Source of the DNA: a virus
Length of the DNA stretch: 21,175 bases
Reading direction: 5' to 3' (one strand)
Virus record (IMG/VR): IMGVR_UViG_3300035698_008229
Location: 1 to 21,175 of that record
Part shown: piece after piece, positions 1,307-18,416 of the stretch
Numbering within the stretch: the first letter of the stretch is position 1
Layout of the letters: each line of letters begins with the position of its first letter
The notes under the pieces: model-generated
What the model was told of the DNA's origin: nothing
Databases searched by the model: none
What the model saw: the letters and a program-made list of their open reading frames with translations, nothing else
Translations under genes and position numbers: made by a program

Positions 1307-3451
1307 TTACTCCACGCGTATTTTGATTTCGTCAATTATTTGATGGTTACTATCCCCTGCCACTCGGTATTCAAGTTCTGACGATGCTGGTATAATTGTC
1401 GCTGATCCTGTGGCTATTTGCTCGATATCATCTATCCATAGTTGCCATACGCCAATGGTACTTTTTGCTTTAAGTAAATACCTTGTATTGGGAGATACTA
1501 TGCCAGCATATATTATAATCAAATTTGAAACGCCATTATCAACGTAAATATGTATATCATTGCCATTATTCGAGTACTGAATATCAAAGTCTGTTGTCCC
1601 TGGAGCACCACGCCTGAATAGCGATGCCGCGCCGGTCGTCTCCCTCGTAAAATAAAATTCGACGCTCCAAGTATTTATTGCTGTCAACGCTTGTGATGCA
1701 AGATATGATATCGTTAGATAGTTATTATCGGTTGACCAAAAATCAAACGCATACCCTATTGCATCAGCGATATATCTCGCTGTGCCTGTCCAGATAGCCG
1801 TATTATCAGCAATGGAATCATCTGGATTGTTTTCACCTTTCCACCAGCCTTTAATCGTAGCATCAATCGTTTCTTCATCGCACACAGCCGGTGTGACTAT
1901 TTTCCCGGTGATAAGCCTATCCGCTACCCTCGCGCCAGCGTACCCGTGCGAGCGCATGAGGCCGCTGAAAAGATTGACCACTTCGCCACTTGATATTTCC
2001 AATGACAGCGGGTAGATGTCAGATCCGAAAAGTGTTGTAACCATGCTCATTGCCGGGATAGGAATGCCTGCGTCAAATGTCGATGCCGTTATCCTGTCAG
2101 CGTATGCCAGCGTCGTTATCCCTTCAAGCGCACCAATAAAGGAGAACTCAATCGCTATCGGTTTTCCTACCTTGTCAAGGACAAATTTGACATTGCCCAT
2201 TGCTCCGCTTATTTTATAAACCAATTGACGAGGCTCTTCTGATTCATCCTCATAGACTACTTCAATGGTCGCCGGTACGCGGTTCATTATAGAAGATGGT
2301 TTTACCGAGACGCCGGAATTGCCATGCGATGTTTGCGCCCACCCGCACGCGCGAAGCATGTCATAGTATTTCGGCGCGTCGTTGTCGAATAGCTGCGCGT
2401 AGAGATCGACCTTGAAGTTCACAGCGCAAGATCGCTTCCCGCTTATGCTGGTGACGTTGGAGAAGTCGCCGCGCTGTTCCTGTCGAGGTGTTGATTCAAT
2501 ATCAGGGGCCACTTTCAAGTCGTAGGCATGATAGGAATATTCAGCCGTTGTCAACGTCTCTGGTGTATACGGTGTTGATTCGAGTTTGAATCCGAGGAGG
2601 TCTTTGTGCTCGGTTATGTAAATTCCACGAGTGTTAGCGTCTGGTGATGGCGTTGCCCATAATACGCTTCCGGCGCCGGTTGCGCTATTCCATTCAGAGT
2701 AATCAAACCAATCGGCAGCGGGGGTTCCAGCGGCTTTTATTATCTCGATTTCAGCGTCGGTCAGAGCCTCGTTGAAAATCATAAAACCCTTGTAAATACC
2801 GTTTGCTTGTAAAAGATCGGCATTGACAGGAATATTTAACTTTGCCAGTGATCCATCACTCGGCAAGTGGGTTAGAATATCATTCCCGGATGTTTTCTCG
2901 GTGTCACCTATGCGTAATTTTTGGTAGTAATTTGTTGGAGCGATAAATCTACGCATGCAATAAAATCGTTCTACGCCGTCATTGAGTGCCCCGTATCCTG
3001 ACGGGTTAAAAGCATACGGGGTTTGGTTGCCAGATTCATGCCATAGCCGTTGTGCAAATCCAGTCGTTAACCGCGACAACCTATAAAGTGTATTGCTGTC
3101 TGACCCTGCACCAGAACCGCACATACAATAATACAATCGGTATGAGTCAAATTCTGTGAAGGAATGTGTAAAAATAATCGTGATCTCACCGGTTATTTGT
3201 AGTGCCGCTTTCACTGAAGATTCAAGATGTCCGTATCCTGATCCGGCACCGCTCGTGAAATACGCTCGTTCATCCCCGCACGTCTCCCCAGCCCCGAAAT
3301 CAGTTAGAGCAAGCGCGAGGGCCCCGCTGTCAGATTGATCCGCGACGTTCGGAGTGTACCCTGTCGTATGCAGGCCCTCACAAAAAGGGTACCATGCGAC
3401 AAGCGATTCCTTTGAAGCAAGTAAGTCACGAAAGGCTGTTGGAATTGCCAT
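1307..3451 (-). CDS. LamG / tail-tube-like / LamG chimeric tail protein
   Basis: This 714-residue protein has three parts. Residues 1-245 look like a laminin-G/ConA-like jelly roll, opening LVAWYPF and closing with FNEALTDAEIEII, a typical LamG end. Residues about 283-525 are clearly homologous to the tail tube protein encoded at 7208-6231: both share LESTPYT/LEDTAYT, PDIES/PEIES, SISGKR/SISGRR, VDLY, RACG, NRVP-TIEVVY, GAMG and EGITT/DGITT in the same order. Residues 532-714 look like a second LamG-like sandwich, starting IKGWWKGE and ending IIDEIKIRVE. The gene follows the tape measure by two bases and has only a weak Shine-Dalgarno, so coupling is likely. A distal tail or tube-decorating adhesin is the best guess. 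It ends in tandem TAA stops. Confidence 0.85.
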   Translation of the reverse strand: MAIPTAFRDLLASKESLVAWYPFCEGLHTTGYTPNVADQSDSGALALALTDFGAGETCGDERAYFTSGAGSGYGHLESSVKAALQITGEITIIFTHSFTEFDSYRLYYCMCGSGAGSDSNTLYRLSRLTTGFAQRLWHESGNQTPYAFNPSGYGALNDGVERFYCMRRFIAPTNYYQKLRIGDTEKTSGNDILTHLPSDGSLAKLNIPVNADLLQANGIYKGFMIFNEALTDAEIEIIKAAGTPAADWFDYSEWNSATGAGSVLWATPSPDANTRGIYITEHKDLLGFKLESTPYTPETLTTAEYSYHAYDLKVAPDIESTPRQEQRGDFSNVTSISGKRSCAVNFKVDLYAQLFDNDAPKYYDMLRACGWAQTSHGNSGVSVKPSSIMNRVPATIEVVYEDESEEPRQLVYKISGAMGNVKFVLDKVGKPIAIEFSFIGALEGITTLAYADRITASTFDAGIPIPAMSMVTTLFGSDIYPLSLEISSGEVVNLFSGLMRSHGYAGARVADRLITGKIVTPAVCDEETIDATIKGWWKGENNPDDSIADNTAIWTGTARYIADAIGYAFDFWSTDNNYLTISYLASQALTAINTWSVEFYFTRETTGAASLFRRGAPGTTDFDIQYSNNGNDIHIYVDNGVSNLIIIYAGIVSPNTRYLLKAKSTIGVWQLWIDDIEQIATGSATIIPASSELEYRVAGDSNHQIIDEIKIRVE

Positions 3452-3453
3452 AA

Positions 3454-5007
3454 TTATCTCGCGTACTCATAATCGGTGAGGCGGCCTTCGTTCTTCGCCT
3501 GAAGCATGGCCTTGCCGATGATAGGTACAAGTGAGTCAACGGTATATTGCGCCGCAGACTGGTCATAGTTCCCGCCAGCGCCGACGTTGATATGAAGGTT
3601 TACAGCGTCATTTGAACTTCGCGACCTGTTGTCGTTATTCGTGGTAAGCAGATTCCACATCTTCGTCTGCTGCTCCTTATTCAGGATCATCTCCCCGGGA
3701 GTAAGCATGGCCGAGACTGAATCACCTGCGGACGGTGTGCCGCCTACCACGCCGCCGCCAGCGTACTTCTGCTGGCCTATAATGGCAACCTGTGCCATAC
3801 CGGACGCAATGATGAAAGGGATCATCCACGGGGTTGCCAGTGACTTCGTAACGGCAAGGGCTGTATTTGCCGTCGCCTGCGCGATATCAATACCCTTCTG
3901 AACTCCTGCACCGGCCTTCGACGCCTTGGCTATCTGGGAGAATGAGCCGAGTACGACGCTTGTGCCACGATCCCAGTTCTGGATTCTTGCTCTCGTATTA
4001 TCATCGTCTTGTTTTTTCTGTTCTTTTTTTCCATCCGACTCTATTTTGTCCCCGATGATTTTATACTTATCATTGATAAGCGCCTTTGCTTCTTTGTTAG
4101 TTTTGTACTGTTCAAGCTCGCGATCGAGCTTGAGTTGATTCAGCGCGAGTTCTTTTTCGACTCCGCTTTCCATGATCGACAACGTTGTGTCTTCCAGAGA
4201 TTCTTGTGCTGTTTTAATGGCGGCATTGACCGCATCTATTTCTGACACATCACCGAGGAACATTGATAAGGCATCACCCTGATCATTTCCAATATCTTTT
4301 CCAATCGAGTCGAGCAAACTATTTACATCATCAATACTTTTCTTTTGATTATTCTTTGCATCTTCAGCGGCCTTGTTATTAATAACTTTTAACTTCTGCT
4401 GATACAAATCCCATATTGCAAGTTGCTTCGTTGTTGCGTCTTCTTCCTCACCGACGCTTGCCTTCCGCCTTTTCATCTCCTCAAAAAGAAGTTGCTTCTG
4501 CATATTTATTGAAAATGCAGCTCGTTCTTTATTTATAGTTTCCCATGTTATTGCTTCTTCTTTTATAATTTCTGTTGTGCTGTCCACAGTTGTTTCGAAA
4601 TTATCAACGATACTCGCGTTGTTAGAACGAGTCACACCAAGTATCTGCTGCATTCCAGTTGACCAGAGATGAATAATCGTTCCTATACCGTCAACCCATA
4701 ACTTTAATACTGGAAGTAAATCTTTGACGATAATATTGATGAATGGGTTTATCCCTTCGGTTATAGATTTACCAAGCCCTTCTGTAATATCACCGAGGGC
4801 CATTTCAAGTTGAATAGCAGGGCCACTACCAACGGCCCCTATCGATTGAGCAGCTCCGTCAACTTGTTTTGCCATATTTCGCATGGCAGTTTCAATTCTC
4901 TCTGTTGACCCGACTGCTCCAGTAATTTCAATACCATATCTCGTCAATGCGTTAGTTGAAGACCCGATTGATTTTCCAACGAGATCTGCAGCTGCCGCAA
5001 GGTTCAT
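3454..5007 (-). CDS. Tail tape measure protein, C-terminal part
   Basis: This is the main body of a tape measure protein, which sets tail length and leaves through the tube during DNA ejection. The 517 codons begin at an ATG directly behind the TAA of the 5008-5469 frame, in the same frame, with no Shine-Dalgarno. The first residues (NLAAAADLVG, then SSTNALTRYGI) match the interior of intact tape measures rather than an N-terminus. Residues about 150-345 are charged, coiled-coil-like helix; about 370-412 are Ala-rich and hydrophobic, holding likely membrane-active helices. Residues 416-450 carry the common tape measure ending GGGVVGGTPSAGDSV and MLTPGEMILNKEQQ. If the stop is a nonsense change or is read through, the full product is about 671 residues. 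Confidence 0.88.
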   Translation of the reverse strand: MNLAAAADLVGKSIGSSTNALTRYGIEITGAVGSTERIETAMRNMAKQVDGAAQSIGAVGSGPAIQLEMALGDITEGLGKSITEGINPFINIIVKDLLPVLKLWVDGIGTIIHLWSTGMQQILGVTRSNNASIVDNFETTVDSTTEIIKEEAITWETINKERAAFSINMQKQLLFEEMKRRKASVGEEEDATTKQLAIWDLYQQKLKVINNKAAEDAKNNQKKSIDDVNSLLDSIGKDIGNDQGDALSMFLGDVSEIDAVNAAIKTAQESLEDTTLSIMESGVEKELALNQLKLDRELEQYKTNKEAKALINDKYKIIGDKIESDGKKEQKKQDDDNTRARIQNWDRGTSVVLGSFSQIAKASKAGAGVQKGIDIAQATANTALAVTKSLATPWMIPFIIASGMAQVAIIGQQKYAGGGVVGGTPSAGDSVSAMLTPGEMILNKEQQTKMWNLLTTNNDNRSRSSNDAVNLHINVGAGGNYDQSAAQYTVDSLVPIIGKAMLQAKNEGRLTDYEYAR

Positions 5008-5469
5008 TTATTTGGCGGCAGCAAAATCTACTATCAAAGGCGTTAATTTTCTGATTTGATCTTCTTCTTTTACGAACTGCGCGAGGCGAGCCTGTGCCTG
5101 AATAATCTCTTCATCGCCATATCTTGTCTTCGTCTGAATGGCAGAGGCCTGATCGAGAAGCGCTTGACTGGTAAACCCAAGTGCGTTGCGAAGTAATTCC
5201 TGAGCCGTTATCTGTTTATCGTAAGCAGCTATACTCTCAGATATAGTCCCTGACATTGCCTGCCATGCGCCGCGTAACGCCCCAAGCGCAACCTGTGCGG
5301 TCGCGAACCCACCCATCGTCGTGAGAAACTGCTTTGTCCCGCTGCTCGCTTTTGCCATCGACTCGGTAGATGTATTTTTGAATTCACCGAGTGACTTGTT
5401 TATATTACCAATCTCTCCGCTGATAAAATTCTTCATCCGCGCTTCGAGCTGCAATACTTCGTTTGCCAT
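5008..5469 (-). CDS. Tail tape measure protein, N-terminal part ending at in-frame TAA
   Basis: These 153 codons start at ATG 5469-5467 behind a strong GGAGG, one base after the chaperone stop. The product is helical and Ala-rich with a hydrophobic stretch near residues 50-70, followed by YDKQITAQELLRNALG and an IQTKTRYGDEEI segment, both typical of tape measure N-terminal regions. The frame ends at TAA (5010-5008), and the very next codon is the ATG of the C-terminal part in the same frame. The conserved segment (LIVDFAAAK, stop, MNLAAAADLVG) runs straight across the stop. So this is most likely one ancestral gene interrupted by a nonsense codon, though an expressed split by reinitiation or readthrough is possible. 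Confidence 0.85.
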   Translation of the reverse strand: MANEVLQLEARMKNFISGEIGNINKSLGEFKNTSTESMAKASSGTKQFLTTMGGFATAQVALGALRGAWQAMSGTISESIAAYDKQITAQELLRNALGFTSQALLDQASAIQTKTRYGDEEIIQAQARLAQFVKEEDQIRKLTPLIVDFAAAK

Positions 5470-5806: not shown

Positions 5807-6231
5807 TTTAAACCGAGCACCTCTTCCTGTGATAAAGATGCCCTGCTCAAAATTGCTTCACAAAGCTCTTCGAGAATCGTGATTGGAAGATTCGTTGCTG
5901 TGCCTATGAAGTCTACTATGCGGCCTTCACCGTCATAGTAGTTGTCCCAGCGCACAAGCCCTTTTGCAACAACATTGATCGTGAACTCGCCCCGCTTTAC
6001 CGCGATGGTTGCCTTCCCATTTTCGACCTGAACTTCACCGCGCATCGAGTCTGAGAACCGCAGAGCGTCTTCGCCAGAGATAGGCCGAAGCGTGAACTTC
6101 GGCTTTATCTCTTCCGGCAAGTCACGAAACGCTATCGGGACGTACACGAACTGTTCCTCTGGCCGGATCGCCGCAAAGCGACGAATCCGGTCAAGATACT
6201 CTTTGCTGATGGTCACGTTTTTTGTTTCCAT
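5803..6231 (-). CDS. Tail assembly chaperone (G-like)
   Basis: A 142-residue protein between the tail tube and tape measure genes, the standard place for the tail assembly chaperone of siphophages. The start ATG overlaps the tube gene stop as TAATG. The sequence shows a chaperone-like pattern: RPISGEDALRFSD at about 51-63, a VRWDNYYDGEGR segment at about 112-123, then LPITILEELCEAI and a charged SQEEVL end. Chaperones of this kind coat the tape measure and help tube polymerisation in the host cytoplasm. The gene ends GGT TTA AAA TAA, so a T TTA AAA slippery heptamer touches the stop and could send some ribosomes into the -1 extension. Confidence 0.82.
   Translation of the reverse strand: METKNVTISKEYLDRIRRFAAIRPEEQFVYVPIAFRDLPEEIKPKFTLRPISGEDALRFSDSMRGEVQVENGKATIAVKRGEFTINVVAKGLVRWDNYYDGEGRIVDFIGTATNLPITILEELCEAILSRASLSQEEVLGLK
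5806..5812 (-). promoter_or_regulatory. Probable -1 ribosomal frameshift site (T TTA AAA)
   Basis: Read on the minus strand, the end of the chaperone frame is GGT TTA AAA TAA. This contains T TTA AAA in the correct phase for the X XXY YYZ slip rule, directly before the zero-frame stop. A -1 slip gives ATA AGC GCA and an open frame of 111 codons. Eight bases past the heptamer lies a small hairpin (CGCTT, AAA loop, AAGCG; plus-strand 5785-5797), weak but at a usual stimulator distance. Confidence 0.72.
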
Positions 6232-7208
6232 TAAGTCTTGCTCCCTTGAAGAATTTCATACTCGTCATTTCCTGACGTGCTTCGCTTGAGTTCGATTTTG
6301 AGCGGGTTTGCCATGTGTCCTTCACGGGCCTCCGGTTTGTACGAATCAACAATCTGAGCGACAGGAGCAGAGATATAAAACGGGACTGAGCCGCCGACAG
6401 TAACCGAGAGAGCCCCGGTAGTGTTGTTGATCTGTGACGTGAGATAGTCTTTATCGTCTGTCACAACCATGTCAGGGTCGCATTCCATCACGGCGTTACG
6501 GTCAACCACGCGTGCTCCTTCGTATCCCTGCGCCTTCGATATGTCGCTGAACATCTGTACATCCTCGCCACCGTCAATCATGAACTTCGACGGGAACTGC
6601 CATGTGCCGAAGAATGAAAATGTCGCAGCAAGGATGGCAGGGGGAAGGGCGGTGTCGAATGCGGTAGGGGTGAGCAGGCTTGCGTTGGCTCTGGTCGTGA
6701 TGCCATCGAGCACGCCCTGAAACTCGAATGTGATCTTGATAGGCTGTCCTATCTGCGGGCTTTCAATCTTGAGCTTTCCCATTGCTCCGCGAACCTTGAC
6801 AACTATCTGCCGAGGGGTTGCGCCCTCTTCTGGGTAAACTACTTCGATGGTTCCAGGCACCCGATTGTAGTCGGCGTTCGGCGTGAGCGAGATCCCGGTT
6901 GAGCCGTGGGCGAGCTGCTTGTACCCGCAGGCACGAATCATTGCAAAATATTGCGGTGCGACCGCTACGCCTGAACCTGGGTATAGATCGACCGCGCAGG
7001 TGACGGTGCATTTGCGCCTGCCGCTGATTGATACGTCCCGGGAGTAGTCGCCACGCGCGAGCTTACGGGCATACGATTCAATCTCCGGCGAAACCTTCAC
7101 TTCGTAAATCCGCTGATTGTAATCTGCCGCCGTGAGAGTCTCTGCTGTATACGCAGTATCCTCAAGCGAGAACCCCATCGTAACCTTGTTTTCCATAAGT
7201 CTCAACAT
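6231..7208 (-). CDS. Major tail tube protein
   Basis: A 325-residue protein between the tail terminator and the chaperone, the usual place for the tail tube subunit that polymerises into the DNA conduit. The ATG at 7208 follows AGGAGGT with seven bases between, so this start is preferred over the internal ATG at codon 5. The sequence is beta-rich with no membrane segment. Its core (about residues 8-260) is repeated as the central domain of the LamG protein at 3451-1307, with shared SISGRR/SISGKR, NRVP-TIEVVY, RGAMG/SGAMG and DGITT/EGITT blocks. The C-terminal 65 residues have no counterpart there and might be a projecting domain. The identification rests on position, size and paralogy; I did not recognise a named family. 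Confidence 0.8.
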   Translation of the reverse strand: MLRLMENKVTMGFSLEDTAYTAETLTAADYNQRIYEVKVSPEIESYARKLARGDYSRDVSISGRRKCTVTCAVDLYPGSGVAVAPQYFAMIRACGYKQLAHGSTGISLTPNADYNRVPGTIEVVYPEEGATPRQIVVKVRGAMGKLKIESPQIGQPIKITFEFQGVLDGITTRANASLLTPTAFDTALPPAILAATFSFFGTWQFPSKFMIDGGEDVQMFSDISKAQGYEGARVVDRNAVMECDPDMVVTDDKDYLTSQINNTTGALSVTVGGSVPFYISAPVAQIVDSYKPEAREGHMANPLKIELKRSTSGNDEYEILQGSKT

Positions 7209-7229: not shown

Positions 7230-7706
7230 TTAAACCATCGAGTCTGGATCGTTCAGTTTTATAGAATAAAATACTTCGAAATCAACAGATACACCGCAGT
7301 TCGGAGTCTCGCGCTCAGTACCCCAGATCGTGCTCGCCAGCCAGATACAATTGAAAGCAGTTCGATCGCTGGCACTCGGCTTGATGTAATAATTAGCACC
7401 GAAGTATTTTTGTAAGTCAGCGATTGCCTTGTCCTGCGCCAGCGACGTATCGTTTTGGCTATTCAGGAACACGTCGAATTGTACCGGCATGAGAATATCA
7501 AGCGTCGGGTTGTTCCCACTGTGCCTATCACCGAGTCGATCTTCACGGCCAAGTAGGATATTTACAGTCGGGTATTGCACCATCGCTTCCATATTGATCG
7601 GCGGCTCGAACACGTCAGCATAGGTATAGTTATACCCTGCTGCAACAGTCATCTCTTCGACACAAGCCTTAAGTGCCAACCTTAGGTTCGTTCTTACAGA
7701 GCTCAT
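7230..7706 (-). CDS. Tail terminator / tail completion protein
   Basis: A 158-residue protein just upstream of the tail tube gene. Size, position and pattern fit the tail terminator (gpU/gp17-like), which caps the growing tube and meets the head-neck complex. Visible features are an N-terminal helix (NLRLALKACVEEM), an MVQYPTVNILLG strand pair, an MPVQFDVFL strand and a helix AQDKAIADLQKYFG, as in small mixed alpha/beta terminators. The start lies inside the 3' end of the upstream glycosyltransferase (38-base overlap) but has a strong GGAGGAA five bases ahead, so it can start independently. It is the first tail gene after the glycosyltransferase island. Confidence 0.72.
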   Translation of the reverse strand: MSSVRTNLRLALKACVEEMTVAAGYNYTYADVFEPPINMEAMVQYPTVNILLGREDRLGDRHSGNNPTLDILMPVQFDVFLNSQNDTSLAQDKAIADLQKYFGANYYIKPSASDRTAFNCIWLASTIWGTERETPNCGVSVDFEVFYSIKLNDPDSMV

Positions 7707-8871
7707 TAAATTCCTCCGTCATTTTCTTGACGATGTTTCGCTGATGTGCAACGTACTCAACACCACTATGATTACTGAGTGCAATTTGATTGTAATGCGA
7801 CGCCATGCCGTACATTCCGAGTGTTGAATAAACGCGGGCAAGATGGTACGCCGGGACTTCCTCGTAAAAAGGAACGGTCTGGAACTTGCCCTTACCGAGT
7901 TTCTTTTTCAATGCTGTCTTGTAAAGGCGCATTGCCGCGTCCATGTCGCCACGCTTGAAGTACACGTCTCCTAGAACAACATACGGTTCAGCATAGTCGA
8001 ATGAGAACGCAGTAGCCATGCGGCACCAGTCTTCAATCTTCTCGATGTTTTCTTCCTTCAGCTGCTCGATTACCGGTCTCTGATGCTGGCACCCGAAAGC
8101 GTAGAACCAGACAAGTTCCATCGATATTGCGTATAACATTTCATACGACGTTTCGAGTTCCTGAACAATACCCTCAAGAATCCCTATTCCTTTTTCATGC
8201 TTGCCGATGTACAGGTAGTCGCGTCCGAGAAAATATCTGGTTTGAATGTCGTTATCACCGATAGTGTAATGCTCGTGTTCGAGTATAGCTATGTTCCGCA
8301 GAGCACTTGCATACGTTGGTTTTGACGGAAGGTGCGTGATGAACATATTATTGATCGACGCGTTCTTCACCATATCCCATTCAGGAGTAAGCAGCTCGTG
8401 AATAGGGCGTGTCCATTTAATCCTGTTGCGCTTGAATACCCGCTCCCGCTTAAACCACATCGAAGGTGAGCCATCCTCATTGACGATGATTGCATACGGC
8501 ATTGACCACATATCAACATCCGCATACTTGTCATCTTTCAGTAGGGCTACGGCACGCGTCCATTGTTCCTTATATTGATCGAGGCAGACGTCATCAGAAT
8601 CTAGCCACATGATCATATCAGAGGAGGTGTTGTCGAGAGCGCAGTTCCGTGCCCCGCCGAAATTACCATGAGGATGCCGTTCACTTTCCCATGCGAACGT
8701 GACAACCTTTTCAGTATACTGTTTGGCAACTGCTTCGACTTCCGTATCGTTGGAAGTATTGACGATTACTATTTCATCGAATGATTCCTTCGCAGAAAAC
8801 GTGCGAAGGCACCTACTCAAAAGACCGGCCTCACCGGGGCCAACAATTACATTGAGCGCGAGTGTGGTCAT
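7669..8871 (-). CDS. GT2-family glycosyltransferase with C-terminal TPR-like helices
   Basis: A 400-residue protein with an N-terminal GT-A domain of the GT2 type. It shows an NVIVGPGEAGLLSRCL start strand and loop, DEIVIVNTSND at about 32-42, FGGARNCAL at about 71-79, and the metal- and sugar-nucleotide-binding WLDSDD at 89-94. The C-terminal half (about 205-370) is helical repeats with TPR-like spacing, such as YFLGRDYLYIGKHEKGIGIL, VLGDVYFKRGDMDAAMRLY and YHLARVYSTLGMYGMASHY. GT2 domains joined to TPRs occur in protein glycosyltransferases such as the peptide S-glycosyltransferase SunS; that comparison is by architecture only. It is the last gene of the island, starts by TAATG overlap with the radical SAM gene and overlaps the tail terminator by 38 bases. 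The substrate is unknown. Confidence 0.85.
   Translation of the reverse strand: MTTLALNVIVGPGEAGLLSRCLRTFSAKESFDEIVIVNTSNDTEVEAVAKQYTEKVVTFAWESERHPHGNFGGARNCALDNTSSDMIMWLDSDDVCLDQYKEQWTRAVALLKDDKYADVDMWSMPYAIIVNEDGSPSMWFKRERVFKRNRIKWTRPIHELLTPEWDMVKNASINNMFITHLPSKPTYASALRNIAILEHEHYTIGDNDIQTRYFLGRDYLYIGKHEKGIGILEGIVQELETSYEMLYAISMELVWFYAFGCQHQRPVIEQLKEENIEKIEDWCRMATAFSFDYAEPYVVLGDVYFKRGDMDAAMRLYKTALKKKLGKGKFQTVPFYEEVPAYHLARVYSTLGMYGMASHYNQIALSNHSGVEYVAHQRNIVKKMTEEFNELCKNEPKVGT
7711..7717 (-). promoter_or_regulatory. Strong ribosome binding site of tail terminator inside upstream gene
   Basis: On the minus strand GGAGGAA lies four bases before the ATG at 7706-7704, within the coding sequence of the TPR glycosyltransferase that ends at 7669. 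It fixes the terminator start and allows it to be translated whether or not ribosomes arrive from the island. Confidence 0.7.
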
Positions 8872-9611
8872 TATTTAGAAGTCCTTTCCGTGTAGTATTT
8901 ATCGAATGCCGCTTCCCATGTCGGCGTTGACTTCTGCTCAATGACTCGCGGTCTGCCCGGCGCTGAAAATCCGCAGTGCCCGCAATGCTTCGCAAACTCT
9001 TTATCGCAATGCTCAACGGTGAGATCGGCTATTGATTGCACGCTTTCAATGTAATCGAAAACGCGGGCCGCTGCCGCCATTGGCGAGCAGGGATAATAGC
9101 CTTTCGTGTTATAGCAGATGCCGCAGTCATGCGTCTGGAAACAGTTGAAGTCATGTTCTTCGCCGAGGTCGACGGGGCTCTCGTTGACCGGGACATACTG
9201 CATAAGGTTCCCGCCTCCATCGACGCCCTTGCCTGTCTTCGCGCTTATGCCGAGGGGAACACCGTACTTGACGCTTATCGAAACAGCCGTGTTTCTCACA
9301 CGAGCATCACCGTTGTTTGTTAGCAGCCAGAACTTGCACTCAGGGTTGTGCGTGTCCCGGTAGTCGATGAGCTTCTGCATTATCTCGTCGATGTGCGGGT
9401 TCATCGAAGGTTCCCCGCCGTGCAGTGTAATGAGCCCCCATTTATGGTTATTGTGAACCGCGTCTGCTATGAAATTCTCTACCGTCTCGACGCTCATTGT
9501 ACGCGCCGCCGGTGCTTGTGTACAGAGATTCGAGCAGTTCGCACAGCGGACATTGCATGCGTAGGTCAAACACAGTTCACAGATGCCATAGTTAGGTTCA
9601 AACCTTTTCAT
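8871..9611 (-). CDS. Radical SAM enzyme with SPASM-like Cys-rich C-terminus
   Basis: A 246-residue radical SAM protein. The ATG at 9611 overlaps the upstream TGA (ATGA) and has AAAGGAG eight bases ahead, so I prefer it to the ATG 78 bases further upstream. The [4Fe-4S] motif is Cys19-x3-Cys23-x2-Cys26 in CNVRCANC, with extra cysteines at 11, 14 and 30. SAM binding is marked by HGGEPSMNP at 64-72, and LLTNNGD at 96-102 is a typical strand. The C-terminal part has cysteines at 157, 163, 166, 175, 202, 210 and 213, suggesting an auxiliary iron-sulfur site as in SPASM or Twitch peptide-modifying enzymes. It sits between two glycosyltransferases. The reaction is unknown; modification of a peptide, protein or sugar is possible. 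Confidence 0.88.
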   Translation of the reverse strand: MKRFEPNYGICELCLTYACNVRCANCSNLCTQAPAARTMSVETVENFIADAVHNNHKWGLITLHGGEPSMNPHIDEIMQKLIDYRDTHNPECKFWLLTNNGDARVRNTAVSISVKYGVPLGISAKTGKGVDGGGNLMQYVPVNESPVDLGEEHDFNCFQTHDCGICYNTKGYYPCSPMAAAARVFDYIESVQSIADLTVEHCDKEFAKHCGHCGFSAPGRPRVIEQKSTPTWEAAFDKYYTERTSK

Positions 9612-10237
9612 TCCAGCATCTCCTTTGGATGGTGTTTCAATATGTATTCCCGCTTCCTCGGCGTTGCCATGAAGTTCGTATAATGGCAAAACGCGAGCTT
9701 GTTCATATCGAGGGTAGGATTGAAAAACCAGTTGAATATCTGCGGCAGTTCATTAACGAAGATGTGGTGCTCGCCGATATGTTCGTTCAAATAATACTGA
9801 TCATACGTATGCCAGTTGTGTGGATCGGAGACGCCGATTTCAAAAACCTTCTTCATCAGTTCTGAATGCCGTTTTGGAATTACCGATAACCCAGCATTGT
9901 ACCTGAAGTACGGGAACGACGCCGACCCGACGCGCTGGCCTACCATAGTGGTATCTACCGCGAAGGAGAACTCGTCCTTGATAAGAAAATCCTCGATGTT
10001 GTACTTCAGGTTGCACGGCAGGATGTCGAGGTCTTGCGCGATGATCATGTCAGCATCAAACATATCGTGTAAAAACGACTTCATCCAGACTGGCGACGTG
10101 TTCTTTGTCTGCTCGATATGTTCAGTGACGACGTGCATCTCGATGCCAAAATGGTTATAATATTTCTCATTGGCCTTTAGCGCGAGGTCTGCGAACGGCA
10201 TGTTTCCGACATTGATGATCACAGCAATTGTTTTCAT
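9608..10237 (-). CDS. GT-A fold glycosyltransferase (GT8-like)
   Basis: A 209-residue protein with a single-domain nucleotide-sugar transferase pattern: strand TIAVIINVG, then a VWMKSFLHDMF helix, IIAQDLDILP at about 66-74 with the DxD metal site (Asp69, Asp71), FRYNAGLSVI near 112-121, and late FCHYTNF. The DxD followed by YNAGL is seen in GT8-like (glycogenin-type) and related enzymes. The family call is tentative, but the transferase fold is well supported. Start and stop each overlap neighbours by ATGA. There is no signal peptide or membrane segment, so it should act in the cytoplasm on host NDP-sugars. Donor and acceptor are unknown. Confidence 0.75.
   Translation of the reverse strand: MKTIAVIINVGNMPFADLALKANEKYYNHFGIEMHVVTEHIEQTKNTSPVWMKSFLHDMFDADMIIAQDLDILPCNLKYNIEDFLIKDEFSFAVDTTMVGQRVGSASFPYFRYNAGLSVIPKRHSELMKKVFEIGVSDPHNWHTYDQYYLNEHIGEHHIFVNELPQIFNWFFNPTLDMNKLAFCHYTNFMATPRKREYILKHHPKEMLE
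9620..9626 (-). promoter_or_regulatory. Ribosome binding site fixing the radical SAM start
   Basis: AAAGGAG on the minus strand ends eight bases before the ATG at 9611. It lies in the 3' end of the upstream glycosyltransferase gene and supports the 246-residue start over a 272-residue alternative. Confidence 0.65.
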
Positions 10238-10521
10238 TTTGTCAGCCTTTCAAGAGCGATCCCCGCGCGTTCATCACTGCCGATTTTGTACGAATGATTC
10301 GTTCGATAAACGTGCTCACGAAGTTTGCTGTTATCACGCCAGAAGCCAGCATCATAGTTTTCATTGTACTCGTGCAACTTTGCCGACATTTTCTTCCCCA
10401 TGCGTTCAGCCAGCGCAAGCATGTCTCTGATGTTCTGTGAGTTCACATCGTCGTCTTGCACAACGTCATTGATCTGCCGAAGCACTTCACAGAGCGTCAG
10501 CTTATAGTTGCAGTCACGCAT
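10234..10521 (-). CDS. Small hypothetical protein in glycosyltransferase island
   Basis: A 95-residue protein counted from the ATG at 10521-10519, which overlaps the methyltransferase stop by eight bases. An in-frame ATG at 10539 would add six residues but has a weaker ribosome site. It looks soluble and helical: LTLCEVLRQINDVV, then NIRDMLALAERMGKKMSAKLHEY, then a charged region ending GIALERLTK. I do not recognise a family; small helical proteins of this kind can be adaptors for enzymes. It overlaps the next glycosyltransferase by ATGA, so it is co-translated with the island. Confidence 0.6.
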   Translation of the reverse strand: MRDCNYKLTLCEVLRQINDVVQDDDVNSQNIRDMLALAERMGKKMSAKLHEYNENYDAGFWRDNSKLREHVYRTNHSYKIGSDERAGIALERLTK

Positions 10522-11113
10522 TGTCACGAAGCACCTCATCGAGTTCTTGAAAGGTGAATACTTGGTTCAAAATATACTTACGATGCTCCTCAAGAAACGG
10601 CCAGTCAAGTATCGCTTGCGGATATGTGATCTGCCTCCCCCACTTTATTATACCACATCCGCAGTCATCTTGCATTGATACCATGAACAACATTGGATTT
10701 GACATGCGCATCGAAGCGAAGACTTTCCACGCTTCGCCATACCACGCCTCACCAACTCGTTCTGTTAATTGAAGATCCTCGTGCTTCGGGCACATATCGT
10801 GCATCACGAGAACACCTTTTTCGGAGAGCACATTCATTCCGTTCAATACATCCGCGTAACATTGTGCGTAGTCGTGATCACCGTCGATGAAAATTAGATC
10901 GAACTTTCTGATATTGTCTTTGAAAAAAGAATCCGATGTCATTTCCAGAAGACCAGGCCGTTGCGATAGAACTTTTATATCCACGCCGGTCTTGTCTTCT
11001 ATTCTGATATTATCGTAGTTCACATCCGGTTTATTAACGCCGACTTCGAGATAATTTCTCGCGCTAATTAATTCAGCTATATGGTTCAGGATGTCTGTAC
11101 GGTTAATTCCCAT
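10514..11113 (-). CDS. Class I SAM-dependent methyltransferase
   Basis: A 199-residue Rossmann-fold methyltransferase. Motif I is YLEVGV at 21-26, an acidic strand end GVDI follows near 43-46, and the post-motif FDLIFIDGDHDY at 71-82 with a downstream KGVLVMHDM strand is typical of the Methyltransf_24 group. Enzymes of this group methylate sugars, small molecules or other substrates. In a glycosyltransferase cluster, capping or decorating a sugar is the simplest reading, but that is inference. The start follows GGAGG six bases upstream and overlaps the preceding gene by 11 bases. A Cys pair (CGCG) near residue 153 is unexplained. Confidence 0.82.
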   Translation of the reverse strand: MGINRTDILNHIAELISARNYLEVGVNKPDVNYDNIRIEDKTGVDIKVLSQRPGLLEMTSDSFFKDNIRKFDLIFIDGDHDYAQCYADVLNGMNVLSEKGVLVMHDMCPKHEDLQLTERVGEAWYGEAWKVFASMRMSNPMLFMVSMQDDCGCGIIKWGRQITYPQAILDWPFLEEHRKYILNQVFTFQELDEVLRDNA

Positions 11114-11969
11114 GGCACGCCTCCACTATATCAACAAGGATCTGCGCCGTTTTTTCAACGGTATATCCTTCTTCGACGAACGAATGCGGGTCGTACGCAT
11201 TCGCTTCAATGCGAGCAATAAAGTCGTCAAACTCTTTGCCCATTGCGTCACCTACTATCCCACACCTATCATCGAAGTGCGGTGCTGAAGTGCATCGGTC
11301 AAATTTATCATCACCAATCCATCGCTTGCTATCAACAACATATACCGGCACCCCGCAAGCGAGTATTTCCATGAGCGCATTACTTGATTTTTCACAGCAT
11401 GAATTGTATATACAGAACTTCGCTTTCGAGCAAGCGGCCTTAAGCTGGTCTATGGTATACTCGCCGTACTTTATTGTCTCAATGGCATTGCCGCGACTCT
11501 CTGCTATTATGCTGGCGGCATTGTAATTGTCTTTATTTTGGTACTTTGTATATATCAACCCAGTATCAGCCGGTTGCCTGTTCTTTGCAATATTACGGTA
11601 TCCATCTTCAACGTCAACAGCCGCCGGGAATATGTGAAAGGTAAAGTCCTTTGTCTCCTCCGGGAATTGCCATCTCCAATAATCAGCAACCCAGTCTGAT
11701 TGAACGATGAAGTTCTTAAACTTTGCAGCCACCCCTGTATGATCCCCCGCGTTGTGCATCACGTTCGGGCCGATAGGTGTGTTATCTGGGATCTCTTCCC
11801 ATCTCTTGAAAACCTGACCTGCCTGCATCCCGACGGCATATTCATAGTTTTCAGAACACACTTCATAGGCAATGCCGAGGCGGTCGAGACCGAGCGTGAG
11901 GTTATACGCGCGGCGTCCCGGCCCCTTGGCAAGGCTCTCGGCAGGATTCATCAAAAGGTTTAGCTTCAC
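11103..11969 (-). CDS. GT-B fold glycosyltransferase (GT4-like)
   Basis: A 288-residue protein that starts at GTG (GTGA overlap with the upstream stop) with GAAGGG ahead. The C-terminal Rossmann domain carries the GT4-like donor-site pattern: YTIDQLKAACSKAKFCIYNS followed by SSNALMEILACGVPVYVV, where the Glu before the ILA helix is the usual ribose contact. The N-terminal half has an acceptor-domain start (LNLLMNPAESLAKGPGRRAYNL, shortened from the usual GG loop). It is shorter than most GT4 enzymes (350-400 residues). No membrane anchor is visible. Substrates are unknown. Confidence 0.82.
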   Translation of the reverse strand: MKLNLLMNPAESLAKGPGRRAYNLTLGLDRLGIAYEVCSENYEYAVGMQAGQVFKRWEEIPDNTPIGPNVMHNAGDHTGVAAKFKNFIVQSDWVADYWRWQFPEETKDFTFHIFPAAVDVEDGYRNIAKNRQPADTGLIYTKYQNKDNYNAASIIAESRGNAIETIKYGEYTIDQLKAACSKAKFCIYNSCCEKSSNALMEILACGVPVYVVDSKRWIGDDKFDRCTSAPHFDDRCGIVGDAMGKEFDDFIARIEANAYDPHSFVEEGYTVEKTAQILVDIVEACHGN

Positions 11970-13033
11970 AGTATCCCTTCGATCACTTCAGCCCATGCCT
12001 TGTGAACCCGCACACGTCGTTCAGAGTGGTCTTGCCTGATAAGCCTGCTGATGTCCTGCAGCTTATCTAGGCTGTACCCGAGGATTTCATGTCGCTCTTC
12101 TGCATTGTCGAAATACTGGATATGCTTCATGTCCCCAGCATAGAAGTCTGCACTATCGAGCCAGTGTGATACGACGTTGAAGTCAAGATAGTTGTTCGGG
12201 TCAAACTCATGCTTGTGCGGAATGAGTGAGTGAACGGCTTTCTTGAAATGGCACTGCCATGAAATGTGATTCAGTACCGGCACCCCGGCGAGGAACATTT
12301 CGAGCAGGTATCTTTTTGTCGGGAAGAAGACAGGCATGCCAGCCGCGTACTGCTCGAAGATCGTCATGGTCGATGTGTTGTACGGGTAGTGGATCGCGCC
12401 CTTGAAGTCAGCAACAGTCTGCCACGCGTGCCCCGCCTTCAGCGCGTCATGTTTCTTTATCATCCGACCAGATGGATCTTTGATGTCGAATGACGCGTAG
12501 TACAGGAACTGATCGTACACCGGGTTGTAATTCATTCCGGTATACTCACATAGTGAGGGAATATATTTCACCTCGCGTTCGATGAATCCCTCGGCGTACC
12601 GCTTGTCGTACAGCGAGTTCGCACAGAGGATGATCTTGCCACTGTCAACGCCGACGCGCAGGTACTCGTTGAACTTTGTCCAGTTCTCCGGGTCACAGTC
12701 AAAGCCGTTCTCATATCTGATAGGGATTTGAATTATGATCGGCTTGTCGAAGTACTCCCACAGCAGAGAGAACGCTGGCGGGTAGCAACATAGGAACGCG
12801 TCATAATCTTTGAACGCGTCCTTGTACGTTTCATAAAACTCCTTGGTCTTACGCTCACGAACGACGTGGCACCAGTTGTCACCTTCAAGTTCAGGGATGT
12901 GCCCTTGCGGGCGATTGATTACAGCAGCGTGCCCGCTTAAGGATATTTCCCGAACGGTATGCCCGAGGGTATTGAAGATGTGCCGGATGTCAGCGCTAAC
13001 GGCAATGTGCTGGTCAATCGATAGTACGCGCAT
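11966..13033 (-). CDS. GT-B fold glycosyltransferase-like protein
   Basis: A 355-residue protein with two Rossmann-like halves. It begins MRVLSIDQHIAVSADIRHIF, with a hinge region near residues 135-175. The late segment IHYPYNTSTMTIFEQYAAGMPVFFP is a divergent form of the GT-B donor-site helix with its conserved Glu and Gly-Pro turn. A helix-rich tail with basic residues (LIRQDHSERRVRVH) closes the protein. It overlaps the preceding GT2 gene by 20 bases and the next by GTGA, and AAAGGA lies seven bases before the ATG. The CAZy family is not clear; the fold assignment is more secure than the function. Confidence 0.72.
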   Translation of the reverse strand: MRVLSIDQHIAVSADIRHIFNTLGHTVREISLSGHAAVINRPQGHIPELEGDNWCHVVRERKTKEFYETYKDAFKDYDAFLCCYPPAFSLLWEYFDKPIIIQIPIRYENGFDCDPENWTKFNEYLRVGVDSGKIILCANSLYDKRYAEGFIEREVKYIPSLCEYTGMNYNPVYDQFLYYASFDIKDPSGRMIKKHDALKAGHAWQTVADFKGAIHYPYNTSTMTIFEQYAAGMPVFFPTKRYLLEMFLAGVPVLNHISWQCHFKKAVHSLIPHKHEFDPNNYLDFNVVSHWLDSADFYAGDMKHIQYFDNAEERHEILGYSLDKLQDISRLIRQDHSERRVRVHKAWAEVIEGIL

Positions 13034-13589
13034 TGTTATCCTTTTCGTAGAAGTATATGGGATGATCGATGTATACCTCTGTATTAAGCAACCGCCTTAC
13101 TGACTCGGAGAATAACCTGTCTTCCCCGTTGTCTATTTCCGGGAACCCGATCTTTCGAGCGATCGCCGTCTTGATAGGATTGAGGTGGTTCGGCGTCCGG
13201 TAATACGCGTCAACGCCGGTGTACCACCCCTGATACTCTATCGAATGCCTGAATGGAAGCGCTTGACCCTGTATTTTCATTATGCCGTCTATCCCGACAC
13301 AGTCAGGCCCGGTTTTGGTCGCATCATAAATAGATTGAACGTAGTCTTCGGCAATAGTGTCGTCGTCATCGACGAACGCCGAGTACTCGCCAGTCGCCTT
13401 CTCAAGGAGCATGTTTCGTTTCTTCCCGACAGACATATCCCCGTCGTCTCCCTCAACAAGCACCTCAATCTTCTTGTCAAGCGCGCTTACTACCTGGCGC
13501 TGGATAGAGCCAAGCAGCCGCGCGAGAGACTCGCTGCGCCCATTGAGGTGACAGATTAGAATCGACAGCCTTACTGTAGGACGTTCCAT
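13014..13589 (-). CDS. GT2-family glycosyltransferase, compact
   Basis: A 191-residue GT-A enzyme. It begins RLSILICHLNGRSESLARLL, has IEVLVEGDDGDMSVGKKRN near 41-59, and the nucleotide-sugar site FVDDDD at 72-77 following ATGEY. NGEDRLFSE near 155 may be the catalytic acidic (ED) motif of GT2 enzymes. It lacks the C-terminal extension of many GT2 proteins, so it is close to a minimal domain. The start overlaps the previous gene by 19 bases. Soluble and probably cytoplasmic. Confidence 0.85.
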   Translation of the reverse strand: MERPTVRLSILICHLNGRSESLARLLGSIQRQVVSALDKKIEVLVEGDDGDMSVGKKRNMLLEKATGEYSAFVDDDDTIAEDYVQSIYDATKTGPDCVGIDGIMKIQGQALPFRHSIEYQGWYTGVDAYYRTPNHLNPIKTAIARKIGFPEIDNGEDRLFSESVRRLLNTEVYIDHPIYFYEKDNNARTID

Positions 13590-14317
13590 TTTCCGATCCC
13601 TGCATTGATAAGGTTTTTTGCAACGATGGTGGAATATGCTATCGCAAAACGTTTGTTCTGCGGGCTGTTCGCGGACTTCTGGACAGGTGACAATCTCTGG
13701 AATGTCTCATCCCACTCGTCTTCTTTTTTCTTTGTTGAATGGTTATGCTGAATATACACCTCTGGGAGATACCGGAGCGTGCCAGTCATTGCCCCGATCA
13801 TAGTCCAGATTACATCGATCATGTCGGCGTGAAAATGCGCACACATAAACGGCTTTCGTGTTGCCTCGACCAGTTGGCGCGAGACAAAAAGATTGACGCA
13901 GCATTTATCGTGCGCTATGTAATTGTCATTGCAGTACACGATGGCATTCCCGTCTGCCGCGTTCATCTCTTCAAGGATTTTTGTATCCCATCCCTGAGTG
14001 AGGAAAACCATGTCATCCCCTAGTTCGGTGACAAGCGTGCCGGGATCGTTGAACCGCGTCTCGTTGTACATCTTGTTGAAATAGAGGGAGAGGTTCGGCT
14101 GCTTGGTTGTCTCGTCGATAATTTCCCAGCAATCCTTCGACGGGAAAAATCTGTTCTGAACGTACTCTCTCGACACCGTGTCGGTAGTGTTAATGCAGTA
14201 CGAGAACCGCAGGCGCGTCGGGTCATCGGCAAGCCTTAGGGCGCTGTCAGTGATGAGTATGAGCTGGAACATACGCTTGTACGTTGGAACCATCAAACAG
14301 ATTTTGTCGTAGATCAC
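13571..14317 (-). CDS. GT-A fold glycosyltransferase, GT2-like
   Basis: A 248-residue protein starting at GTG (GTGA overlap with the membrane protein stop; AAGGGGG upstream). It shows ICLMVPTYKRMFQL at 6-19, the typical GT2 opening strand and helix, then YFNKMYNETRF and VTELGDDMVFLTQGWD at 96-111, with Asp101-Asp102 in the place of the metal-binding DxD. The region VYIQHNHSTKK near 197-207 has histidines that can bind metal in GT2 folds. It is more divergent than the GT2 gene next to it. Substrates are unknown. Confidence 0.75.
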   Translation of the reverse strand: MIYDKICLMVPTYKRMFQLILITDSALRLADDPTRLRFSYCINTTDTVSREYVQNRFFPSKDCWEIIDETTKQPNLSLYFNKMYNETRFNDPGTLVTELGDDMVFLTQGWDTKILEEMNAADGNAIVYCNDNYIAHDKCCVNLFVSRQLVEATRKPFMCAHFHADMIDVIWTMIGAMTGTLRYLPEVYIQHNHSTKKKEDEWDETFQRLSPVQKSANSPQNKRFAIAYSTIVAKNLINAGIGKWNVLQ

Positions 14318-14532
14318 GAATCCCCCTTGTTTCCCTCAAGTAGTATTTTCATGCCGCTCATGAAATTTACGTAGATTGATTTAATCCCGACCCACAGAAA
14401 ATAGCACATCAGCATAGATTCTATTAAATCAACTGGCTTATAGTAAAGCCTTAAAATGACTACCGTCGTTGTTAAGATCATAGGCGTTATTGCTGTTATT
14501 GCGCATGCCTTTGTGATCGCAAGATTTTTCAT
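14314..14532 (-). CDS. Small two-helix membrane protein
   Basis: A 72-residue protein from the ATG at 14532-14530, which overlaps the upstream TGA as ATGA; a GTG two codons earlier is less likely. It has two hydrophobic segments, about residues 8-29 (ACAITAITPMILTTTVVILR) and 37-58 (LIESMLMCYFLWVGIKSIYV), with a short charged tail. Size and topology could fit a membrane anchor for the glycosyltransferases or a small holin-like protein. No lysis gene is nearby, and coupling inside the island favours a role with the glycosyltransferases. I do not recognise a family. Confidence 0.62.
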   Translation of the reverse strand: MKNLAITKACAITAITPMILTTTVVILRLYYKPVDLIESMLMCYFLWVGIKSIYVNFMSGMKILLEGNKGDS

Positions 14533-15191
14533 CAGCACACCATCCCGATGTAATGCTTATCCTCTGGGTTCGGAACCTCGATCTCATTCCCGGTGTACTT
14601 GAGCTGCGGCATGTTCGCCCGCACATGCGCACAATGCTTTTCTTTAATCACCGGCCACATATATGTTGAAAGGAAAATCTGATCTGAACCATGGAATAAC
14701 CCGCGTGGGTTTTTGTAATCCGGCTTGATGCGTCCCATCCATGCCCCGATCTTCTGGTCGAAATCAGGAACGATCCCAGGAACCGCGCCCCATGTACCGC
14801 CGAGAATATGTGTCGCATGACTTTCACAATCGCGGATAATGTGAAACGGCTTTCCGCTGGCAATCCACTCGTCGACCATTTTTACTTCCCGGACTGAGTA
14901 CTTCGAGTCTGTGTCGCGCACAATAAACCGCTCGACAGTCTCATCGTCATACATTGGATGGAAACGCCAGAACATGCCGAGCACATCGGTTGACCGTCCC
15001 ATCAAAATCATCTCTGCACCGGTCGCGTGTATTCTGTCAAGCGCCTCAACTGGAACCGTGTCGTCATGGTAGAACCGGCATATCCAGTCCGGATAGAACT
15101 CCGCGCGATGTTCAGCATTCCACACAGCACCGTCAATGTACAAAGGGTTCGTTCCCCAGATGGAAAATGAGATGATCTTTTTATTTTGCAT
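14532..15191 (-). CDS. Glycosyltransferase-like protein (GT-A type)
   Basis: A 219-residue protein that opens the island. The pattern is FSIWGTNPLYIDGAVWNAEH near 9-28, EFYPDWICRFYHD at 31-43, MFWRFHPMYDD at 73-83 and FIVRDTDSKYS at 89-99 with a DxD-type site (Asp93, Asp95), then VDEWIASGKPFHIIRD and GGTWGAV. I recall this pattern from phage and bacterial glycosyltransferase-like proteins found in capsule or sugar clusters; the exact family name is not certain. The start overlaps the gp10-like gene by 11 bases, directly coupling the island to the head genes. Confidence 0.72.
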   Translation of the reverse strand: MQNKKIISFSIWGTNPLYIDGAVWNAEHRAEFYPDWICRFYHDDTVPVEALDRIHATGAEMILMGRSTDVLGMFWRFHPMYDDETVERFIVRDTDSKYSVREVKMVDEWIASGKPFHIIRDCESHATHILGGTWGAVPGIVPDFDQKIGAWMGRIKPDYKNPRGLFHGSDQIFLSTYMWPVIKEKHCAHVRANMPQLKYTGNEIEVPNPEDKHYIGMVC

Positions 15192-15681
15192 TTGCCGCCT
15201 TGATAAGATGGTTTTTTATTTCCGACCTAATCATTCGATTTCCATAGGTCTTGAACTCTTCGTAAATAAATAGCCGCTTTGGGATGTATACCTTTTTCGC
15301 GTTCACGTACATTTTCTTCTTCGCGTTAGGTTTGAAGTGGAGGTACTTTTGACTCTTCGGAAAAATCCAGCCGTTGAACCCGTCGTGTTGATGCACCTTG
15401 AGATACCACGCCCTCTTTTCTGCTCCAAGGTATCCGATTAAATCTATGCTGGATCTCCAAGCAACCTGTATTCCCCACGCGTTTCTTGCGTTGCCTGTTC
15501 GCGACTTAAGCCCGTATCCCTGACTTTTTCTTCCGCTAAGCTGCGACTTGATTATTCTTTTTTTCTCAAACTCAAGAAGACCTGCAGCAAGCCCTGACCT
15601 TAAAGCCGCCGCCAGCTTCGCAGGCTTTAACCGCCACGCGTCGATGATCTTATCGATATTGCTTTTCGCTTCGATGGTCAA
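15181..15681 (-). CDS. HK97 gp10-like neck / tail-completion protein
   Basis: A 166-residue basic protein. The start is TTG, overlapping the upstream TGA (TTGA), with AGGAG nine bases ahead. The N-terminal helix (KLAAALRSGLAAGLLEFEKKRI) followed by QLSGRKSQGYGLKSRTGNARNAW is typical of gp10-like virion morphogenesis proteins: a helix, then a loop with SGR and a GL-RTG-R--W motif. The tail part has a basic KPNAKKKMYVNAKKVYIPKR stretch. These proteins close the head after packaging or join head and tail. It is the last head gene before the island. Confidence 0.78.
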   Translation of the reverse strand: MTIEAKSNIDKIIDAWRLKPAKLAAALRSGLAAGLLEFEKKRIIKSQLSGRKSQGYGLKSRTGNARNAWGIQVAWRSSIDLIGYLGAEKRAWYLKVHQHDGFNGWIFPKSQKYLHFKPNAKKKMYVNAKKVYIPKRLFIYEEFKTYGNRMIRSEIKNHLIKAANAK

Positions 15682-17099: not shown

Positions 17100-18416
17100 C
17101 TACCACTCCGACTCAGTGGTCATTGCTCCGCCGCGACCGCTGAACGCCGTGGGGCGTACACAGTTACAATCGTACTCCAGGAACATGACGAGGAAAATCT
17201 CGTCGTTCAGGAGCGCGGAACGACCGGTCGAGTCACTCGCCACATCGCTGACCCGGAAGATCGGATCACGGAAGGACGCGTAAATGAACTTCGACCAGTC
17301 ACCCGTGATCACCTTTGAACAGGTGCTCGAACTTCCGACAACATCGGTCGCCGGAATCTGGGTGGTTGCACCGATGGAAAGGCGCAGGGATTTCTCGATC
17401 GCTGTCTGATCGATAAGCGACTTGCCGAACTTCGGCTGACCGTTCCTGCTGGCCTGTCCGTTGTACATCTCGGTTTTCTCCCTGAGCATGCCCCAGAGAA
17501 CTGCCGGATGCAGGAGCGTTCCGTTTGTCGCGGTATCGCGCAGCTCATTCGCCACGGCAAGACTCTGCTTCATTGAAGCGAGGTCATCAATCGTGAACCG
17601 CCGCCCGTTTGCGCCGATATCGCTCACGCCGGTCATCTTCGCGTAGCTCCCGAGAATACCGAGACCTTCGGAATCTGTGCCGGTGCCGTTGGTCAGGCCG
17701 CGTGACAGCTCAACCGAGGTGTCGAGCGTCATCTTCTGGCGCACAATGCTCTCGATCGCGTTGTTGGTCTGGTCAAGCAGGCGATTCGACACACGAACGT
17801 AGGTGCCGATTTTCTTGGGCCGCAGCCACTCCAGCTTGAATGAAGAGCTAGTCTTCGTAGGCGCCTCGGTTTCGCTGAGGTGATACGCCGACAGATTCCC
17901 GTTATCAACGGGGATAGGCACGTCACCCTTAAGCCCGGTCAGCTTCATCACCGGCATCTGCATGATGGCAGTGTTCGCGTAGATGGTATCGATGATGTCT
18001 CCCTGATAAATCTGGGGAGGCACAAGGAACGTACCGTCGGAACCGTCGCTAGCATTGTAGTCCTTGAGAACCGCCGCTTCGAATGAGCCCTCGGTCTCCC
18101 AAAACTTCCTTGCATCGCTGTTGTCCCCCATACCCTTCTGCGCCCTGAAATCCTTGGCGAGACCGGTATAGAAACGCGACCATGACCATTTCTGTTTCTC
18201 TGACTCAAGACCGGGAAGGCCGAAAGAGTTGTTCTTCTTGATCTCTTCCTGCAACTTGACGATCGCGCTGTCTGCATCAGCGAGCTTGGTGTGGAGTTCT
18301 GCAATCTCTCCACTTGCCTTGTCGCTCTGCTCCTTGCTCTTATCCTCGATGGTCTTCGCAACATCGTCGCGGAAACCAGTGAGCATTCCTTGGAGGTCTT
18401 CTTTCGTAACGTCCAT
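17100..18416 (-). CDS. HK97-type major capsid protein
   Basis: A 438-residue capsid protein directly after the prohead protease, the classic order. Residues 1-65 are charged helix with coiled-coil heptads (EIAELHTKLADADSAIVKLQ), the scaffolding delta domain that the protease should remove. The mature fold starts around 123-140 with SDGSDGTFLVPPQIYQGDII, followed by KKIGTYVRVSNRLLDQ, VELSRGLTNG and the late RDPIFRVSDV segment typical of HK97 gp5-like proteins. AAAGGAG lies upstream. Several cysteines near the C-terminus (C--C in YDCNC) are unusual and might affect shell stability. It ends in TAG. Confidence 0.92.
   Translation of the reverse strand: MDVTKEDLQGMLTGFRDDVAKTIEDKSKEQSDKASGEIAELHTKLADADSAIVKLQEEIKKNNSFGLPGLESEKQKWSWSRFYTGLAKDFRAQKGMGDNSDARKFWETEGSFEAAVLKDYNASDGSDGTFLVPPQIYQGDIIDTIYANTAIMQMPVMKLTGLKGDVPIPVDNGNLSAYHLSETEAPTKTSSSFKLEWLRPKKIGTYVRVSNRLLDQTNNAIESIVRQKMTLDTSVELSRGLTNGTGTDSEGLGILGSYAKMTGVSDIGANGRRFTIDDLASMKQSLAVANELRDTATNGTLLHPAVLWGMLREKTEMYNGQASRNGQPKFGKSLIDQTAIEKSLRLSIGATTQIPATDVVGSSSTCSKVITGDWSKFIYASFRDPIFRVSDVASDSTGRSALLNDEIFLVMFLEYDCNCVRPTAFSGRGGAMTTESEW

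Follow-up and report, generated by a model that had tools for sequence, protein, structure and literature searches.

A putative protein-glycosylation pathway encoded between the neck and tail terminator genes of uncultured siphophages

Why would a siphophage carry a run of glycosyltransferase (GT) genes inside its virion morphogenesis operon, and to what would the sugars be attached? The question arises from virus record IMGVR_UViG_3300035698_008229, of which positions 1-21,175 (21,175 bases, referred to here as the window) were analyzed. As a preliminary description of this DNA had stated, 11 co-directional genes (g1 to g11), all present in the list of open reading frames (ORFs) and all on the minus strand, lie between a gp10-like neck gene and the tail terminator gene. 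We consider it probable that they form a phage-encoded protein-glycosylation pathway that is made together with the virion. The reading centers on g11, the last gene of the interval, which together with the two border genes occupies the following positions:

15181-15681, minus strand: gp10-like neck/head-closure gene, the 5' border; an ORF labeled from orthologue matches to PF05069 and PF04883.
7669-8871, minus strand: g11, SunS/GmaR-like glycosyltransferase with GT2 (PF00535) and TPR parts, just before the tail terminator.
7230-7706, minus strand: tail terminator, the 3' border; labeled from orthologue matches to PHROG tail terminators 3907, 5078 and 4204.

The g11 profile matches SunS (E 5e-23) and GmaR (E 9e-23), and the DxD, FxxARN and HE motifs of the GT2 domain align between the g11 profile and these two proteins. 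SunS, encoded by the SPbeta prophage, is a peptide S-glycosyltransferase that modifies a bacteriocin, and GmaR is a flagellin glycosyltransferase. However, the similarity at the sequence level is remote, and g11 differs in its conserved TPR-like C-terminal region and in its location within a virion operon. The SunS family model TIGR04195 matches 11 of 14 g11 members, far below its cut-off, and the window protein scores 21.4 bits against a curated cut-off of 350. Because it falls below this cut-off, g11 is by its sequence SunS-like and not a SunS orthologue.

Relatives were sought in viral contigs with profiles of the capsid, g1, radical SAM (S-adenosylmethionine) enzyme, tail tube and g11, which yielded approximately 20 related contigs from uncultured siphophages. 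Eighteen contigs, some of them mutually close, show the terminator side of the interval, and in every one g11 is the final GT gene. It is the sole invariant enzyme of the interval, and no relative lacking it was found among these contigs. In contig 3300002052_000035 (L182) it is accompanied by different upstream enzymes. Contig 3300023220_000168 (L139) encodes a related capsid, neck protein, terminator and tube with g11 as the only recognized GT, which suggests that g11 can work without other GTs.

Every related contig that shows the interval carries GT genes between gp10 and the terminator. The same gene order recurs in divergent relatives, with a gene content far beyond chance. A 5' block of g1, g3 and g4, usually with g5, follows gp10 in 16 of the 17 contigs where that side is visible. 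The middle part varies in size, with only a radical SAM enzyme in contig 5917 and eight or more enzymes at the other extreme, and the turnover includes radical SAM enzymes, methyltransferases and sugar aminotransferases. The radical SAM gene is not constant, occurring in 7 of 12 tabulated intervals.

This variable middle part is what would be expected if the interval held cargo, that is, accessory (moron) genes riding in the late operon with a role not tied to the virion. We regard that explanation as very improbable, as border and core genes alike are conserved and are inherited along with the structural genes. In Mantel tests on pairwise identity (permutation p 2e-4), neck gene K correlates with g1 (r 0.88), g4 (r 0.83) and g11 (r 0.95), and the tube correlates with g1 (r 0.88) and g11 (r 0.92). 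Since the identity distances share one phylogeny, these correlations show common descent, not function. In addition, conservation is higher for g1 than for neck gene K in every one of the 78 pairs, and the GC content of the interval (0.487) is like that of the rest (0.503). The genes had been described as an island set into an operon that is otherwise compact. However, the viral contig scans revealed no relative with an empty gp10-terminator interval, and the lineage as a whole has inherited the GT interval. Recent horizontal insertion was rejected on the basis of the strong co-inheritance and the lack of an empty site in these scans.

The remaining genes of the interval are listed in the order of transcription:

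14532-15191, minus strand: g1, GT-A glycosyltransferase with an invariant RDxD motif (AF2 model, Foldseek, orthologues).
14314-14538, minus strand: g2, small membrane protein of 74 aa (an ORF; the two helices are the reading of the preliminary description).
13571-14317, minus strand: g3, GT-A-like glycosyltransferase (PHROG 14945 glycosyltransferase, E 6e-14).
13014-13589, minus strand: g4, GT2 glycosyltransferase of the Che8 gp108 / LittleE gp15 family (PF00535, E 2e-8; PHROG 14775, E 3e-36).
11966-13033, minus strand: g5, GT-B glycosyltransferase (AF2 model, pLDDT 92; Foldseek to SnogD, BshA and PglA, prob ~1.00).
11103-11969, minus strand: g6, probable GT-B glycosyltransferase, a variable gene (sub-threshold PF00534/PF13692 in 4 of 5 orthologues).
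10514-11113, minus strand: g7, SAM-dependent methyltransferase, a variable gene (PF13578, E 9e-10).
10234-10539, minus strand: g8, small protein without a family, kept in several relatives at 45-55% identity.
9608-10237, minus strand: g9, probable GT-A-like glycosyltransferase with a conserved QxLD/DxD-like motif (QDLD) and no family match.
8871-9611, minus strand: g10, radical SAM enzyme (PF04055) with a CX3CX2C motif and six conserved C-terminal cysteines in the alignment.

Seven GT-like proteins had been proposed. Five are firm (g1, g3, g4, g5 and g11), whereas g6 and g9 are probable glycosyltransferases only, judged from their sequences. The methyltransferase and the radical SAM enzyme of the same proposal were both confirmed by family match. 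Structure models decided the fold for g1 and g5 only. The g1 model (pLDDT 94.7) matches glycogenin and Skp1 GalT by Foldseek (prob 1.00), and we confidently predict a glycogenin-like GT-A glycosyltransferase. Its orthologues are 49-78% identical, and in most relatives it adjoins gp10. The g5 model likewise allows a confident prediction of a GT-B glycosyltransferase. PDB sequence profiles gave no credible match for g1, g3, g5, g6 or g9, and in profile-profile comparison of the GTs shared ancestry was not detectable for g1/g9, g1/g3 or g5/g6. The C-terminal part of g10 appears SPASM/twitch-like, its solved relatives are weak (YydG, BtrN), and its start is better placed at ATG 9611, with a 4-nt overlap, than at TTG 9689. 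No relatives of g2 were found by tblastn among the related contigs, and it is seen only in the window.

Two observations concern the enzymes in relatives. In L009:4925-6391 and L011:18619-20088, g3 and an additional copy of g1 form a single protein of ~489 aa (the fusion was seen in contigs 33483 and 9091_50), a hint that g1 and g3 may act together. In another relative, the interval contains a sequence that is sulfotransferase-like by eye (L063:14803-15516) with no Pfam match.

The genes are joined by overlaps of 1 to 38 bases, as previously described. All 12 junctions from gp10 through g11 to the terminator overlap (in order by 11, 7, 4, 19, 20, 4, 11, 26, 4, 4, 1 and 38 nt), which fits a single translationally coupled transcript. 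The terminator-tube junction has a gap of 21 nt and no overlap. Promoter-like sites in the region (19 vs 13.4 in shuffled sequence, sd 3.2) and terminator-like sites (9 vs 10.4) are both near expectation.

Phage virion glycosylation is documented mainly in actinobacteriophages, and that of mycobacteriophages (Che8, Rita and cluster O) was reportedly described by Freeman et al. 2023. The g4 protein is homologous to Che8 gp108 (35% identity over 91% of g4), a GT from a phage with reported glycosylated virions, as well as to LittleE gp15 (35% identity) and Gordonia phage Ronaldo gp122. Passages of the literature place glycans on the Che8 and Rita capsids (PMC11256854) and on the C-termini of mycobacteriophage capsid and tail tube proteins (PMC12619734), and one on cluster O phages describes an O-methyltransferase followed downstream by three GTs in tandem (PMC11600133). 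The window thus shares with these phages the encoded GTs (five firm and two probable here), including the g4 homologue, and, with cluster O, a methyltransferase beside the GTs. In the Omegavirus LittleE, several GTs (gp15, gp17, gp18 and gp21) also lie inside the structural operon, between the capsid (gp13) and head-tail connector (gp22-26) genes. However, the LittleE cluster is on the capsid side of the connector genes and not between gp10 and the terminator, and it has a kinase and no g11-like or radical SAM gene. The Che8 GTs lie at the genome end. The Che8, LittleE and Ronaldo proteins used for comparison include no recognizable homologue of g11, g1, g3, g5 or the radical SAM enzyme, and the enzyme set of the uncultured window lineage is far larger and more variable.

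The SunS/GmaR profile of g11, the homology of g4, the glycosylated mycobacteriophage virions and the position of the LittleE GTs together suggest that the glycan starts on protein through g11. In such a pathway, g11 would place the first sugar, directly from a nucleoside diphosphate (NDP)-sugar, on a Ser, Thr or Cys of the protein. The glycan would then be extended by g1, g3, g4 and g5, and in the window phage also by g6 and g9. The methyltransferase and the radical SAM enzyme would tailor the glycan sugars, as would aminotransferases and epimerases in relatives. The acceptor would most likely be a virion protein such as the capsid or tail tube. The earlier proposal that a glycan is built directly on a protein, possibly a virion protein, is thus the reading best supported by g11 and g4. 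The analysis establishes the gene content, the GT folds and families, the fixed position, the co-inheritance with structural genes, the constancy of g11 and the turnover of the other enzymes, and from these we infer a protein as acceptor, a virion protein as target, the order of sugar addition and the role of the radical SAM enzyme.

Several points weigh against this reading. The g11 protein resembles SunS only remotely, with an E of 1e-4 for the window protein alone and a score far below the TIGR04195 cut-off, and proteins combining GT2 and TPR are found in other pathways too. Only the g4 family has a clear homologue here among the mycobacteriophage GTs compared. The phages and their host are uncultured, and the reading rests on sequences and models. 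Furthermore, the solved structures closest to g4 include carbohydrate polymer GTs, among them heparosan synthase and one chain that we take to be TarS. This last point also favors the main rival explanation, in which late GTs alter lipopolysaccharide (LPS) or another surface glycan of the host, blocking superinfection or freeing progeny from receptors. The literature interprets many phage GTs in this way, and the quick turnover of the middle enzymes fits antigen-like surface sugars. Passages on pelagimyophages (PMC7029224) describe uncultured phages in which a hypervariable region holds several GTs and, in some cases, radical SAM genes. However, those host recognition clusters lie with the tail-fiber genes of T4-like myophages, and their GTs are read there as modifying host LPS.

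We nevertheless consider modification of the host envelope unlikely. The window contains no visible flippase, polymerase or phosphoglycosyl transferase, and the sole membrane protein of the interval, g2, is small and not conserved. The components of a Gtr-like O-antigen seroconversion set (GtrA-like flippase, polytopic membrane GT, lipid-linked sugar GT) were not found among the 11 ORFs of the interval, the only place searched, where the 74-aa protein is the only membrane protein. The genes lie inside the virion morphogenesis operon in every relative, and g11 resembles protein GTs. Lysogenic conversion is not favored, as scans of genome contigs with the capsid and tube revealed no related prophage.

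The absence of sugar-nucleotide enzymes, noted in the preliminary description, holds for the window but not for its relatives. A DegT-type sugar aminotransferase occurs in the interval of 3 of 15 related contigs, and an NAD epimerase occurs in 4 of 15 (in G003 just upstream of a portal-like gene). No nucleotidyltransferase (NTP_transferase) of family PF00483 was found in the 15 contigs, and host NDP-sugars are therefore still the likely feedstock, as proposed, although some relatives carry sugar-modifying enzymes. The presence of aminotransferases and epimerases together with the lack of PF00483 fits the modification of host NDP-sugars.

The same 15 contigs bear on whether the GTs decorate DNA instead, acting on hydroxymethylated bases as in phages containing TET or hydroxymethylase enzymes. 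A passage of PMC12619734, citing Pyle 2024, reports that virus-encoded GTs hypermodify DNA with diverse glycans. However, TET/JBP (PF12851) and thymidylate synthase family (PF00303) enzymes, the base-modifying routes that were searched, are absent from these contigs, several of which exceed 50 kb but which may not be complete. The lack of these enzymes argues against DNA glycosylation, as do the placement of the genes with head-tail genes in every case and the resemblance of g11 to protein GTs. We judge this alternative improbable.

If the pathway acts on the virion, as we favor, two proteins encoded in the window are candidate acceptors:

17100-18416, minus strand: HK97-type major capsid protein (PF05065, E 6e-22).
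6231-7208, minus strand: major tail tube protein, labeled here from its position and its conservation with the terminator in relatives; no family match was found.

A comparison of capsid C-termini revealed a near-conserved E-T-x-E-x-x-W at the C-terminal end in most relatives, a candidate glycan site only. Other features of the structural genes were also observed. The tail-tube domain occurs a second time in a 714-aa tail protein (window 1307-3451, minus strand), whose residues 277-529 align with the L002 tube at 43% identity. Long N-terminal extensions, of up to ~890 aa, are present on the terminator or tube gene of some relatives (L012:7662-8732, L103:13043-16180, L013:839-3475), and the one in L012 contains short repeats. 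An in-frame TAA at 5008-5010 divides the tape-measure gene (window 3454-5469, minus strand) in two, whereas that of the L007 relative is one 740-aa ORF; the split is either a sequencing error or a broken gene. Small look-alike proteins of 97-122 aa occur near GT genes or the portal in relatives (L117:1928-2221, L112:5984-6352, L139:573-881, L182:9107-9436). The two tested had no family match, and they are possibly virion spike or decoration proteins. An assignment by eye of L117:1928-2221 (97 aa, within the relative's interval) as an RcGTA spike-base protein was dropped, as Pfam and PHROGs gave nothing.

Glycosylation of phage virions is of a known kind, and what is new here is the lineage, the constant SunS-like enzyme and the variable tailoring set. 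Their gene content suggests that these phages cover their own virions with a custom-made sugar coat that changes fast. A more specific and rather doubtful proposal is that the particles bear a virus-specific glycan with a SunS-like start and a radical SAM enzyme that alters the virion glycopeptide or its sugars. If true, it would represent radical-SAM modification of a virion along with a fast-evolving phage glycan coat. An uncultured lineage unrelated to the actinobacteriophages appears to depend on virion glycosylation, with a SunS-like enzyme at a fixed place in the virion operon of all relatives that show the interval and the other sugar enzymes swapped around it. Given this fixed g11 and its changing partners, the role of virion sugars in host range, evasion of predators or antibodies, and stability may be testable by comparison, and the lineage may serve as a source of protein glycosyltransferases and tailoring enzymes.

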